Positions 1,183 to 23,145 of a stretch of 33,977 nucleotides of DNA are shown in pieces. Every line of letters starts with the position of its first letter. Positions within the stretch are counted from its first letter, which is position 1. A program made the position numbers and the translations under genes. Source of the stretch: Microcaldota archaeon (GTDB lineage: Archaea; Micrarchaeota; Micrarchaeia; Micrarchaeales; CABMGC01); assembly GCA_027366155.1 (NCBI GenBank), contig DAHXKV010000025.1, positions 1 through 33,977 of the forward strand. The letters are read 5' to 3'. The notes below the pieces were generated by a model. That model did not search any database, was not told where the DNA came from, and saw only the letters and a list, made by a program, of their open reading frames with translations.

Positions 1183-1776
1183 TTATAACAAGGCCAATTT
1201 TCCTGCGTCTGTTATATTGTAATCGTCATCCAGGTATCCGTGGTCTTTGAGCTCCTTGAGGTGCTGGTATATCATACCCCTGGTCTTTCTCATCTCCTTT
1301 GCTATCTGGAGTATGGTTCTGTTCCGTCTATCCTGCATTTTGACCAGAAGCTCACGTTTGGTAGAGCCAATGTTGTAAGAGAGCTTTGGGAGGCTTATTA
1401 CCTCATTGTCCCTCATGCCGTTAGAGACTATCTTAAAGACTCTGTCGGGACGTGCGTAGCACCCCAGGAGTGCTGCGTTGGCTAGCGACCTGCTTCCGCC
1501 GCCAACGCTTACTACTATTCTCGTTCCGGGAGCCTTGTTCTTGTCTATCAGATCAACCATAGCCTTTGCTATTGCAAAGATGTCATCTTTTGACATTTTA
1601 GCCATTTCAAACTGCACGATCTCACCAAAGGTCTTCTTCACGGACTTTATGTTTTCCTTGAGCTCTCTCCCGTCGTCATCAACAAGCAGTACAACCTTCC
1701 TCGGCTGGTATTTAAGCGCGGCTGGAAGGAATGGTTTAACGTTGTAGAACGTCGCGATAAGCGTTATGTTGTCCAT
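1183..1776 (-). CDS. CARF-HTH transcriptional regulator, Csa3-like
   Basis: N-terminal Rossmann-like MDNITLIATFYNVKPFL...VVLLVDDDG, then IVVSVGGGSRSLANAALLGCYA typical of CARF motif 2, and C-terminal winged HTH (NRTILQIAKEMRKTRGMIYQHLKELKDHGYL). Start chosen at M10 of the listed ORF because of the TATA position. Confidence 0.75.
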   Translation of the reverse strand: MDNITLIATFYNVKPFLPAALKYQPRKVVLLVDDDGRELKENIKSVKKTFGEIVQFEMAKMSKDDIFAIAKAMVDLIDKNKAPGTRIVVSVGGGSRSLANAALLGCYARPDRVFKIVSNGMRDNEVISLPKLSYNIGSTKRELLVKMQDRRNRTILQIAKEMRKTRGMIYQHLKELKDHGYLDDDYNITDAGKLALL

Positions 1777-1800
1777 TGCTACAACTACTATGCAGTAATA

Positions 1801-1815
1801 CATTTATATACTTAT
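1801..1815 (-). promoter_or_regulatory. Archaeal TATA-type promoter for the CARF-HTH gene
   Basis: Minus strand reads AAGTATATAAATG about 25-30 nt upstream of the MDNIT start, consistent with a near-leaderless transcript. Confidence 0.5.
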
Positions 1816-3696: not shown

Positions 3697-4428
3697 CTAC
3701 TCTCGCCTTGGAATAAGCAGAAGGTTTATGCCATTAGCAGTTATCTCGTATGGAACGGTGGAGAAGCTGTGCGGTGTTCCCCTCATTTTTATTATTTCCA
3801 CAGTAGGCACGCGGTTCTCCTCGACTGCGCCGCTTAGATACATTACTATTATTCCGTCATATATGAAGAACTCCGGCTCGAATATCAGCTTTTCTTTCTC
3901 CGGAGTCTCTATTTCCATGGAGAGCAGGGAAGTGACATTCTGCTTGCGAAGCATGGTTACAAGGCTTGTCGAGACGCTTCTGTATTCGAAAGGATCCTTG
4001 ACAAAGAGTTTCATTACCGAGACGGAGTCTATCGCCACCCTTGTTGCCGAGTACTCTATTATTACAGACTCGATGTCGGCTATCGTGGTAGTGAAGGTAA
4101 ATATGTTTCCCTTCTTGTCTTTCTGGATTAGCGAGGATGCCTGGTCGGTGCCCTTTATTATTAGCTTGTGCTCGGCTATGAGCCGGTCTATCTCGGAGAA
4201 CTGGCCATAGGCTTCCTTCATGTTCTCCAGTATCATCTTTGATTCTTCTTCAAGGGAGAAGAGGATGCAGGTCTCTCCGGCGAGCGCATTCTTGTAAAGG
4301 TACTCCAGGCAGAGAAGCGTCTTGCCTGTTCCAGGCCCTCCCGCAATTACTACCTGGTTGAACTTTGGTATGCCGCCATTTAGCATCTTGTCAAGGCCGT
4401 CTATTCCAGTCAGCACCCTTTCGCGCAT
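3697..4428 (-). CDS. KaiC-like RecA-superfamily ATPase, single domain
   Basis: MRERVLTGIDGLDKMLNGGIPKFNQVVIAGGPGTGKTLLCLEYLY...FSLEEE; typical archaeal KaiC/RadA-like domain. Confidence 0.88.
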   Translation of the reverse strand: MRERVLTGIDGLDKMLNGGIPKFNQVVIAGGPGTGKTLLCLEYLYKNALAGETCILFSLEEESKMILENMKEAYGQFSEIDRLIAEHKLIIKGTDQASSLIQKDKKGNIFTFTTTIADIESVIIEYSATRVAIDSVSVMKLFVKDPFEYRSVSTSLVTMLRKQNVTSLLSMEIETPEKEKLIFEPEFFIYDGIIVMYLSGAVEENRVPTVEIIKMRGTPHSFSTVPYEITANGINLLLIPRRE

Positions 4429-16884: not shown

Positions 16885-17598
16885 CTACTTGAATATGTTG
16901 AATCCGCGCGGAGTTATCTCGTAGGGCATCGACTCGACGCGGTGCGCCGTTTTGCGCATCTTGACTATGCGTACAAGGTACTGCATGCTGCCGTTCATGT
17001 CCACCTGGTTAAGCCAGATTATCCCATCGAACATAAATGTGCCGTACAGGCCTGTCTGGTCCTTTGAGACAGGCGACTCTGATTCCATCGTTATTATTGA
17101 GGTTACGCCCATGTTCCGGAATGTCTCAGTCATCAAGTCCACATAGCGGGTGAAGACCCTGTCGTCATCCTCCGAGGCCCTCAGGCTTGAGATGGAATCG
17201 ATGACAAGAAGCCGGGACTTGTTTGACTGGACTATCTTGTTTATGCCCGCAAGGAATGACTGCCAGTTTTCTTTCGACTTGAATCCGCTTATGCCAGTCT
17301 GCTCCTGTATGAGTATCCTGCTCGAATGTATTATGTCATCTATGTCATCGAAGTACGAGAACGCGCCGCCGGCATTCTGTATTATGGAGTCGCGGCCTTC
17401 TTCAAGGCTTACGAACGTGCCAGGTACGTTGAGTTTTGCGTTGCGGTAGAGCATCTCGAATGAGAGCAGGGTCTTGCCTGTGCCTGCGGCTCCGGCTAGA
17501 AGCACCTGGTTTCCCTCAGGTATGCCCCCCATAGACATCTCATCTAGACCATTTATCCCAGTCATTATCCTGCTCCTGCCCGGTGTGCCCATTTCCAT
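16885..17598 (-). CDS. KaiC-like RecA-superfamily ATPase, single domain
   Basis: SRIMTGINGLDEMSMGGIPEGNQVLLAGAAGTGKTLLSFEML...LLVIDSISSLR. Confidence 0.88.
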   Translation of the reverse strand: MEMGTPGRSRIMTGINGLDEMSMGGIPEGNQVLLAGAAGTGKTLLSFEMLYRNAKLNVPGTFVSLEEGRDSIIQNAGGAFSYFDDIDDIIHSSRILIQEQTGISGFKSKENWQSFLAGINKIVQSNKSRLLVIDSISSLRASEDDDRVFTRYVDLMTETFRNMGVTSIITMESESPVSKDQTGLYGTFMFDGIIWLNQVDMNGSMQYLVRIVKMRKTAHRVESMPYEITPRGFNIFK

Positions 17599-17646: not shown

Positions 17647-18606
17647 CTATTTGTCCAGGCCTTCCGTCAGGTCCTTTATCTTGTAGAAGTTCATGGCGTA
17701 TTCTGCCACCGAGATGTCCGGTTCGACACCGAAAGCCCTTACTACATCGATAACATTCTCTATGGTGGGATCCTTGTTGGCCGCATTGAGGAAATAGAGC
17801 CCTATTATGTACACTTCGTGGTTGCGCACATGTACCTCCCCTATCGCACTCAGTATGAGATCGTTTATCTCAAAGCCGTATGCAAGGACGACGCGCTTTA
17901 TGCTACCTTTGTCTACCTCCTTCCCAGAAAAGCTCAGCATGCCTATCGCGCTAATATACGGAAGGAGGTCTGAGCCTTTGTAGTTGCGTATCTTCTCACT
18001 CTTTAGTATCTTGTCCATTTCAGCAAGCCCGAATCTCGCAAGAATATCGTATAGTGAGATGGTTACCTCGTATGACTTGTCGTATACCATCGAGAGCACA
18101 TTCGGAAGGGGAGGCTTCTCAGTGTGCATCCTTCCGGCCGAGAATTCCTTGTAGTATTCTATGGCATATCCAGCCACTATTGCGTCAGGGGACTCGTCTA
18201 TTGCCCTCAGGACACGAGTGAGCATGTCTATTGTCGGGTCTATTTTCAGCGACTCTAGGCTGTATATTGCATTCAGATAAAGGTTGTAGTTCTTATAGTG
18301 AAGGTTCTTTACTACAGTAAGCATGTCCTGTCTGATATCTATCCCCGCAGCCTTGAGCAACATCGAGATGTTGCCGTCATCCATTTCCTTGCATGCGAAG
18401 GCTAGTGCTCCTGCGGCCGCAACGTAATCGAGAACGCCCTTGGCCAGGTTTGCCTGTATCTCCGAGCTTTCTACAGTGTTCTTGAGCTGTATTATGGTCA
18501 TGAGGATCTTTGCTCTTGTAGCTTCCCTTATAACTATGCCTAGTCGCTCCTCTAGCTCCTCCATGTCTATTTCTTTCAGGTTTATCTTGGAGGGTTCTTC
18601 AGCCAT
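17647..18606 (-). CDS. Protein with four ribosomal protein L12/P1 N-terminal-like repeats
   Basis: aa 60-103 LDYVAAAGALAFACKEMDDGNISMLLKAAGIDIRQDMLTVVKNL resembles archaeal P1/L12 N-terminus; related segments at about aa 109-154, 215-259 and 265-311. Confidence 0.55.
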   Translation of the reverse strand: MAEEPSKINLKEIDMEELEERLGIVIREATRAKILMTIIQLKNTVESSEIQANLAKGVLDYVAAAGALAFACKEMDDGNISMLLKAAGIDIRQDMLTVVKNLHYKNYNLYLNAIYSLESLKIDPTIDMLTRVLRAIDESPDAIVAGYAIEYYKEFSAGRMHTEKPPLPNVLSMVYDKSYEVTISLYDILARFGLAEMDKILKSEKIRNYKGSDLLPYISAIGMLSFSGKEVDKGSIKRVVLAYGFEINDLILSAIGEVHVRNHEVYIIGLYFLNAANKDPTIENVIDVVRAFGVEPDISVAEYAMNFYKIKDLTEGLDK

Positions 18607-18627: not shown

Positions 18628-19611
18628 TTATAAATGCTGCATAGCTTTATTTGTTCCACTGTTTCCGATAAACGAACTTGGAAGAGGAGCTGCAGGAAAA
18701 CCAGCCTTGGAGAGGTTTTCGGCAAATTTTTTGGCAGACTCCTGGCTCCCCCGGGTATATATCCTCGAGGGAGAGCATAGGCGTATGTATTCTGTCGCCT
18801 GCGCAAAATCCGCATGGTCGCTTAGGACAAACTGCGCATGTGTGCGCATGTTGAACGTTGATGCAAAGCCGGTAGCCACTGCAGTATATACCTTCTTTTT
18901 GTATAGCGAGCTTAGTAGGGCTGCAGTCTTGTGCAGCTTTGACATCGTGGTTATGCCCATAAAATTCTGCAGCACTGACTGGGCCTGCTCCTCTTCATCC
19001 TTGTAGAACGAGACGTAGTCCAATGCCACCCCGTGCCTGAGATATACCTGGTTTACAAGGTGTATGTTTTTGTCTACGACGGGGATTGTTCCGGTGTCGT
19101 TTGCAATACGTATCAACTCCTGCGCCTTTCCTATTGAGTGGGCCCCGAATAAGATAATCCCGTCGTTCAGCCGTGATAGGATGAATTCGGAGATTTCAGC
19201 AATTACCCTGTTGCGCTCCGGGAAACGTGTCGAGGGGTCGGGATATGTCGAGTCGATTATGAGTATGTCTGTTTGTCGGGTCTCTATGGGCGCGGCCACG
19301 CTGGGCGCCTGCATCTGGAAATCGCCGCTATACAGGACCGAGGCCCCCAGCTCTTCAGGCTCTGCGTACAGCTGCTTTGATCCGAGCACATGGCCCGCAT
19401 TTATGAGAGTGGCTGATTCTAGGTTTGGGATGTGCTCCATGCCATGCTTTCCACGGATTTCCATCAGTTCGATGGTTTCTTTGCTTGCCAAGACCTTTTT
19501 GCCGCGGCCTGCGCCTGAGATATGGTCTGAATGCGCATGCGAGACAAAGTTTATGTCTGAATCCTGTTCCCTGCAATCCAAAGAGACATTTAGCTTGCCT
19601 ACGCGTATCAT
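18628..19611 (-). CDS. Metallo-beta-lactamase-fold nuclease (COG1236-like, beta-CASP/exonuclease type)
   Basis: FVSHAHSDHISG, INAGHVLGSKQLY, YSGDF, LIIDSTYPDP, LSDHADFAQ motifs. Internal start MIRVGKLNVSLDC chosen. Confidence 0.8.
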   Translation of the reverse strand: MIRVGKLNVSLDCREQDSDINFVSHAHSDHISGAGRGKKVLASKETIELMEIRGKHGMEHIPNLESATLINAGHVLGSKQLYAEPEELGASVLYSGDFQMQAPSVAAPIETRQTDILIIDSTYPDPSTRFPERNRVIAEISEFILSRLNDGIILFGAHSIGKAQELIRIANDTGTIPVVDKNIHLVNQVYLRHGVALDYVSFYKDEEEQAQSVLQNFMGITTMSKLHKTAALLSSLYKKKVYTAVATGFASTFNMRTHAQFVLSDHADFAQATEYIRLCSPSRIYTRGSQESAKKFAENLSKAGFPAAPLPSSFIGNSGTNKAMQHL

Positions 19612-19700
19612 CGAATCCCCTTTGCAGCTCGCCCTGGAAACAGACAATATGCATTAGGAATTAATTTATAGGCAAACGTTGAATATGTAGAGGAGAGGCA

Positions 19701-22530: not shown

Positions 22531-23145
22531 TCATTGCCAGATTTTTTCCTCGGAGATGCTGCCTCCGGGGTAGTCTTCCTTGAATGTTTGCAGTCTGAAA
22601 GAGTGGAGAGTGCAGACACTTGCCTCCGGTGCGGCTCCAGGTGTGATCCTCCTGCGCAGGATGTCCAACAGCGAGCCCTCTTGCTCGCGGAGACTGGCCG
22701 CTTCCTCGGGAAATACAAAGCTTCTCCAGAAGCCTGCTGAAAGGCAGATTCCCCTCCTCTCGGAGTAGTAGGCATTTTCAACTAATTTAGATTCGGGCGC
22801 AATGGCCTCGAGAGATGAGGATATACGCAATTTTATTACAGTTTCGTCGAGCACAGGCATCGATAATGGAATGCTGTTCTTGCTGAATGCCGCATCCAGC
22901 GCATACTGCACCAGTACATCTGCAGGTTTTTTCTCCACGGTTAGCGAGCCTCCTTCGCCGAGTGCCACTCCGACAGGATGGCTTTCAAGTGATATTAGGA
23001 TGCCTACGCGCCTGTCAAGCCCTGTGAGATACCCATCAAGCATCTCCTTGCGGAAGAGAGGCGACTCCAGCTTGAGCTCGATTGCATTCCTTACAGCCTT
23101 GACCATCGCCAGGCCTTCTTCCTTGCTATACATCCCGCTTGCCAT
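22531..23145 (-). CDS. AMMECR1-domain protein, divergent
   Basis: C-terminal half GICLSAGFWRSFVFPEEAASL...ILRRRITPGAAPEASVCTLHSFRLQTFKEDYPGG resembles AMMECR1/PH0010; the usual LRGCIG motif is not conserved. Confidence 0.65.
   Translation of the reverse strand: MASGMYSKEEGLAMVKAVRNAIELKLESPLFRKEMLDGYLTGLDRRVGILISLESHPVGVALGEGGSLTVEKKPADVLVQYALDAAFSKNSIPLSMPVLDETVIKLRISSSLEAIAPESKLVENAYYSERRGICLSAGFWRSFVFPEEAASLREQEGSLLDILRRRITPGAAPEASVCTLHSFRLQTFKEDYPGGSISEEKIWQ

Follow-up and report, generated by a model that had tools for sequence, protein, structure and literature searches.

A ribosomal stalk domain in tandem: a family of repeat proteins encoded beside KaiC-like ATPases in Micrarchaeota

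The locus described here raises the question of what a protein assembled from repeated ribosomal stalk domains does in a genome that also encodes a separate, normal aL12 with its acidic tail, plus uL10. The window, by which we mean the whole stretch of 33,977 nucleotides that was analysed (contig DAHXKV010000025.1 of assembly GCA_027366155.1), comes from a micrarchaeal genome assembly of 0.78 Mb that is 78% complete. The target gene is one open reading frame of 319 aa on the minus strand at 17647-18606; read on the plus strand, the same interval is interrupted by stops. A sequence-only reading had proposed that its product consists of four L12-like modules. That part stands, and what the reading missed is the adjoining KaiC-like gene and the wider family to which the protein belongs. 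The features on which our argument draws are as follows.

17647-18606, minus strand: whole gene, encoding P0001, a double-unit, four-module protein of 319 aa derived from the aL12 N-terminal domain (open reading frame and translation, AF2 model, TIGR03685)
18472-18564, minus strand: long N-terminal helix of unit 1, residues 15-45 (AF2 secondary structure)
18295-18432, minus strand: module 1, residues 59-104, aL12/P1 N-terminal domain type 1 (Y61, A64, G66, L68)
18139-18291, minus strand: module 2, residues 106-156, aL12/P1 N-terminal domain type 2 (Y110, Y115)
18004-18096, minus strand: long helix of unit 2, residues 171-201 (AF2 model)
17827-17976, minus strand: module 3, residues 211-260, type 1, a repeat of module 1
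17656-17823, minus strand: module 4, residues 262-317, type 2, a repeat of module 2
16885-17598, minus strand: KaiC-like ATPase ('KaiC-B' clade), lying downstream of the family gene at a distance of 48 bp (PF06745, E=4.7e-44)
3697-4428, minus strand: KaiC-like ATPase of the 'KaiC-A' clade, 12 kb from KaiC-B (PF06745, E=1.2e-46)

P0001 is made of two copies of one unit of about 155 aa, each comprising a long helix and two three-helix modules. The four modules lie where the sequence-only reading had put them, at residues ~59-104, 106-156, 211-260 and 262-317. The spacing of about 155 aa from which it had deduced the duplication of a pair comes out at 156 aa (Y61 to Y217, Y110 to Y266), and the two halves are 32% identical to each other (E=5e-22). 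The AlphaFold2 model of the protein, built from an 11-sequence alignment (mean pLDDT 86.6, pTM 0.86), places the helices of module 1 at residues 59-70, 77-86 and 93-100 and those of module 2 at 107-119, 126-135 and 142-156. Helix and loop lengths of the modeled modules agree with those of the aL12/P1 N-terminal domain. The chain ends right after module 4, and both the hinge and the acidic factor-binding tail, whose absence had been noticed before, are missing.

Type-1 and type-2 modules alike are genuine homologues of the N-terminal domain of archaeal aL12/P1, with similarity far beyond chance. P0001 alone matches the NCBIfam model of archaeal P1 (TIGR03685) in three stretches (E=1.1e-6) with 29 bits, below the curated cut-off of 100, and its PF00428 score of 12.4 is likewise below the curated cut-off of 28.1; among single-unit relatives, 17 of 19 match TIGR03685 (best 2.7e-14). 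On P0001, an HMM built from 28 micrarchaeal aL12 N-terminal domains reaches 42.4 bits, compared with 10.8 for the best of 2000 shuffles, and matches modules 1, 3 and 4 separately at 14.2, 12.7 and 13.5 bits (shuffles of module 1, at most 7.8 bits). Family models of the two module types, built without the window's genus, match all four modules, each with its own type and at 41-64 bits (shuffles at most 11): the module-1 model gives 41.5 bits on module 1 and 49.7 bits on module 3, and the module-2 model 41.0 bits on module 2 and 64.2 bits on module 4. Aligned by hhalign, module 1 matches aL12 with 98.6% probability (score 63) and module 2 with 98.3% (score 59), the shuffled controls staying at or below 13-14. 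The modules match each other with 98.4%, the scores of the three pairs spanning 58-63 and the maxima of their controls, 60 column-shuffled profiles per pair, spanning 13-19.

Structural comparisons lead to the same protein. Module-1 family profiles retrieve Pyrococcus horikoshii P1 (3a1y_A) from PDB sequences with E=3.3e-8 and 5.5e-9 and the module-2 family profile retrieves eukaryotic P2 more weakly (best E 0.005); a single-sequence phmmer search against the PDB gave no match. When a single-unit relative is modeled by AlphaFold without templates (pLDDT 90.9) and compared with the PDB by Foldseek, 3a1y_A, which is P1 in the archaeal P0-P1 stalk structure, comes first (probability 1.00; 0.6 Å over 42 residues at 40% identity; TM 0.70 by target length), and human and wheat P1/P2 come next, at 0.72-0.84. 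The Foldseek E-value for 3a1y_A, 0.62, is not significant alone, because the target has only 58 residues; what counts in this match is its probability, rmsd and identity. As AlphaFold was trained on the PDB, the fold match is therefore support and not fully independent proof. Profile and fold evidence together uphold the proposed L12/P1-like repeats and their pairing as 1/3 and 2/4, the likeness to P1 being plainer in single sequences for repeats 1 and 3, while repeat 2 needs the family profile.

Only the N-terminal domain of aL12 has been copied into the family; hinge and acidic tail have been dropped. The acidic C-terminal factor-binding motif (...GGLASLFG) is present in all 28 true aL12 proteins of relatives. 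Positions invariant in aL12 are altered in a module-specific manner: at the equivalent of Leu8, 68% of type-1 modules have Gly and 76% of type-2 modules have Tyr, and 50 of 95 units show the G/Y combination. The dimer interface of human P1-P2 is where helices 1, 2 and 4 of one chain meet those of the other (PMC3794596). With helix 1 at that interface, a small/large exchange there would fit an asymmetrised covalent pseudo-dimer. The earlier suggestion of an intramolecular mimic of P1 dimers is thus plausible, given the tandem fusion and the replacement of L/L by G/Y, and the two modules of a unit may pack against each other as the chains of a P1 dimer do.

Two observations concern uL10, the partner of aL12 in the stalk. 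The long helix was considered as a cis mimic of the uL10 spine and this candidate was rejected, as its hhalign comparison with the spine gives 1% probability and a score of 10.5, inside the range of shuffled profiles (up to 12.5). Separately, micrarchaeal uL10 C-termini (loci L164-L192; the copy of the source genome is L179, on G000:C32) lack the acidic GLFG-type tail of aL12, ending for example in ...GINSLVKKEES; the tails of aL12 may therefore be the only ones to recruit factors.

The family is narrowly distributed. P0001 has matches in 49 of 98 genomes, two of them at aL12 strength only, and across 295 genomes of the phylum matches well above aL12 strength are confined to 66 genomes in two families (f1 and f2) of one order; outside these families, matches reach aL12 strength only. 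A scan of the genome collection with P0001 alone returned no relative; with the alignment of close relatives it returned 21 loci, nearly all titled Micrarchaeota (record titles read Candidatus Micrarchaeota, with one Marsarchaeota and one 'uncultured archaeon'). Virus and phage collections yielded no family relative, and P0001 is unmatched in the defence library.

Family members are single units or fused doubles, sometimes in many copies per genome, and a tree of 92 units resolves them into two clades (split support 99). Clade I consists of single-unit proteins without KaiC linkage, the exception being one pair of units on long branches (G238 and G074); clade II holds the window protein, KaiC-linked single units, double units and expansions. 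Within the window's genus, the first units of the window protein and of four relatives cluster together, as do their second units; the duplication of the unit therefore predates the split of those species. Large expansions, partly in tandem arrays, occur in six genomes (G015, G026, G031, G035, G037 and G040), all of which carry KaiC-B. A few matches in the expansions, which include L095 (G015:C18) and L094 (G035:C27), apparently contain in-frame stops.

Genomic context points to KaiC-like ATPases rather than to ribosomal genes, and thus lends no support to the P0-stalk binding that the sequence-only reading had considered. KaiC-A and KaiC-B form separate clades (support 100 each), of which the window has one member each; in other genomes KaiC-A usually lies beside KaiC-B, commonly in the order KaiC-A, KaiC-B, family gene. 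Neither window protein comes near any curated NCBIfam cut-off for a KaiC subfamily (for KaiC_arch_3, for example, the score is 90.7 and the cut-off 249). An all-against-all comparison of neighbours identified a KaiC-like ATPase as the one recurrent partner beyond lineage-specific synteny; other conserved neighbours sought in the same comparison amounted to such synteny only, and the neighbours of unlinked family members are not conserved. The family gene is next to a KaiC-like gene in 18 genomes from both taxonomic families and many genera (G000, G015, G016, G021, G023, G027, G031, G037, G063, G064, G080, G084, G170, G200 and G283; G035, with one gene between; G074, at about 1 kb and on the opposite strand; G238, convergent), and in a 59-genome subset 16 adjacencies were seen where about 2 would be expected by chance, on a rough estimate. 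Gaps between the neighbours are often 4-16 bp; the 48 bp in the window do not prove an operon.

The two genes also co-occur. KaiC-B is found at 196 bits or more in 23 of 158 genomes of the order, and 22 of these 23 carry the family (p=6e-9), as do 22 of 26 at a looser cut-off (p=1e-6) and 15 of 16 KaiC-B genera when counted by genus (p=6e-4), all in Fisher tests that ignore phylogeny. A phylogeny-aware test on 29 genomes, with a tree of uL10 and aL12, had too few supported branches and low power. In each of four genera (g7, g10, g13 and g32) the one genome with KaiC-B also has a KaiC-linked family member, and neither occurs in the other genomes sampled from these genera; a clade I member is present in one relative from g10. 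KaiC-A and KaiC-B stand side by side without the family in three genomes (G070, G065 and G255). The recurrent placement of family genes beside KaiC genes suggests that part of the ribosome has been put to new use as an adaptor in signalling.

Synteny within the window's genus shows exceptions to this linkage. Four relatives keep a block of malic enzyme, family gene and metallo-beta-lactamase-fold nuclease without KaiC-B, which in the window occupies the very interval that separates the family gene from the malic enzyme. Thus, KaiC-B was either gained in the window or lost in the relatives, and the family can persist without it. Within the genus the family gene is 28-35% identical, the adjoining nuclease 51-54%, the malic enzyme 59-63% and TFB 85-86%; with most neighbours of the block at 50-86%, the family gene evolves much faster. 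Such divergence suits a component of the ribosome less well than a protein that acts as an adaptor or sets specificity.

Other genes of the window deserve mention in their own right. The nuclease-like gene (18628-19647, minus strand), 21 bp upstream of the target gene and a conserved neighbour in the genus, encodes a metallo-beta-lactamase-fold protein related, below the cut-off, to the ligase-associated DNA exonuclease family TIGR04122. A second very fast-evolving but syntenic protein of 204 aa (22531-23145, minus strand; 24-29% within-genus identity) lies beside conserved genes. The product of 1183-1803 (minus strand) matches the CRISPR-associated CARF/HTH family Csa3 (TIGR01884, E=1e-18).

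We lean towards the view that the family is a stalk-domain-derived adaptor or scaffold of a KaiC-based signalling module and not a ribosome component. The N-terminal dimerisation domain of aL12/P1 was copied with loss of hinge and acidic tail, two diverged copies were fused behind a new long helix to form one unit, and this unit is duplicated again in the window protein. Each unit may be a self-contained pseudo-dimer with an all-helical binding surface, serving as adaptor or scaffold of a two-component module of KaiC-A and KaiC-B. Binding of KaiC rings to the adaptor would depend on ATP state, with a signal being passed on to client proteins, and doubling and lineage-specific expansion could provide multivalent adaptors or adaptors of different specificity. 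The fuller proposal, that an exapted stalk dimerisation domain docks on KaiC-A and KaiC-B rings as a covalent pseudo-dimer and that doubling and paralogues build an order-specific signalling network, is one we advance tentatively, at close to an even chance. It has been proposed that signalling in archaea runs through KaiC-like ATPases as hubs, which are served by output or adaptor domains that are small, stand-alone, lineage-specific and often multi-copy (PMC5847659, in a passage citing Makarova 2017). The family fits such a role in distribution, linkage and copy number; its source, a stalk domain, differs. A counter-point to the adaptor reading is that clade I single units, present in many genomes, are untied to KaiC-B, so KaiC-B is not always needed.

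This counter-point belongs to a wider alternative, in which the family is a general scaffold for protein-protein contacts. The unlinked single-unit clade would then represent its core function, which has nothing to do with KaiC, and the KaiC link would be incidental or only one of several uses. The unlinked clade itself, the genus-mates without KaiC-B beside the gene and the variable neighbours of unlinked members all agree with it, but recurrent close linkage in 18 genomes of many genera does not, nor does the finding that KaiC-B genomes are nearly all among the carriers of the family; we consider it rather unlikely. Ribosome-centred function takes its most interesting form in a stalk decoy or translation damper, whose tandem pseudo-dimers would bind the uL10 (P0) spine instead of aL12 dimers and leave ribosomes without factor-recruiting tails, perhaps under KaiC control. 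True homology of the modules to the aL12 N-terminal domain, a core that follows the P1 pattern position by position and the missing factor-binding tail speak for such a decoy. However, the genes are not located with ribosomal genes, within-genus identity is 28-35% against 50-86% for most block neighbours, both modules depart from aL12 at positions that are invariant there (G or Y for L8), and the extra long helix of each unit may occupy the groove. We regard a decoy as improbable.

Far less probable still is that the modules are unrelated to L12 and converged on this appearance as helical repeats of HEAT/TPR or Death-like type. Whole-chain Foldseek of the 319-aa four-module model found no relative in the PDB and P0001 falls below the curated TIGR03685 and PF00428 cut-offs, but the profile, per-module and fold evidence all single out P1, and the hhalign and Foldseek results contradict convergence. 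The sequence-only reading had itself named a HEAT/TPR fold or a missing L12 match as what would overturn it, and profile comparison and Foldseek instead point to P1. Scanned against Pfam, P0001 and the relatives that make up alignments A1 and A2 gave no match to the Death-like NitrOD2 (PF18550) and NitrOD5 (PF11537); the sole HEAT match was HEAT_2 in one relative (E=0.15), and no TPR was listed.

We are not aware of any other case in which the P1/L12 N-terminal domain serves away from the ribosome, and none came up when P0001 and its relatives were scanned against Pfam or in a literature search. The copying, asymmetrisation, fusion and expansion of this domain in genomes of only ~0.6-1.3 Mb show by what route archaea with highly reduced genomes acquire new parts. 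Should the KaiC link prove functional, the adaptor reading would give archaeal KaiC-like ATPases, whose inputs and outputs are still being worked out, a specific partner that can be tested. Genetics is very hard in Micrarchaeota, which are tiny, acid-loving archaea, and recombinant biochemistry is feasible.

Among known systems, HalOD1, NitrOD2 and NitrOD5/'Death domain-like' resemble the family, as described in PMC5847659, in being small, stand-alone, multi-copy and narrowly distributed; all are proposed there as parts of KaiC networks, and the Death-like ones are also helical. The family differs from these domains in giving no sequence match to their Pfam models, in descending from the stalk domain rather than from a Death-like fold and in showing no receiver-domain fusion among the members seen. 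In relation to KaiC-like ATPases and the archaellum protein ArlH (PF06745, NF052589), the neighbour genes are single-domain members of that superfamily, and the stalk-derived family is a neighbour of KaiC, not KaiC itself. The closest comparison is with aL12/P1 (TIGR03685, PF00428; 3a1y), with which the family shares a three-helix N-terminal domain of equal helix and loop lengths and the pattern Y-x-x-A-x-x-x-L-x-x-x-GKE-I/P-x-x-E-N-I-x-x-V-x-x-A-x-GI-x-PD. In contrast to aL12/P1, family proteins score under the curated cut-off, are without hinge or acidic factor-binding tail, are encoded outside the ribosomal gene cluster and carry two diverged copies of the domain in tandem behind a new helix, often duplicated again.
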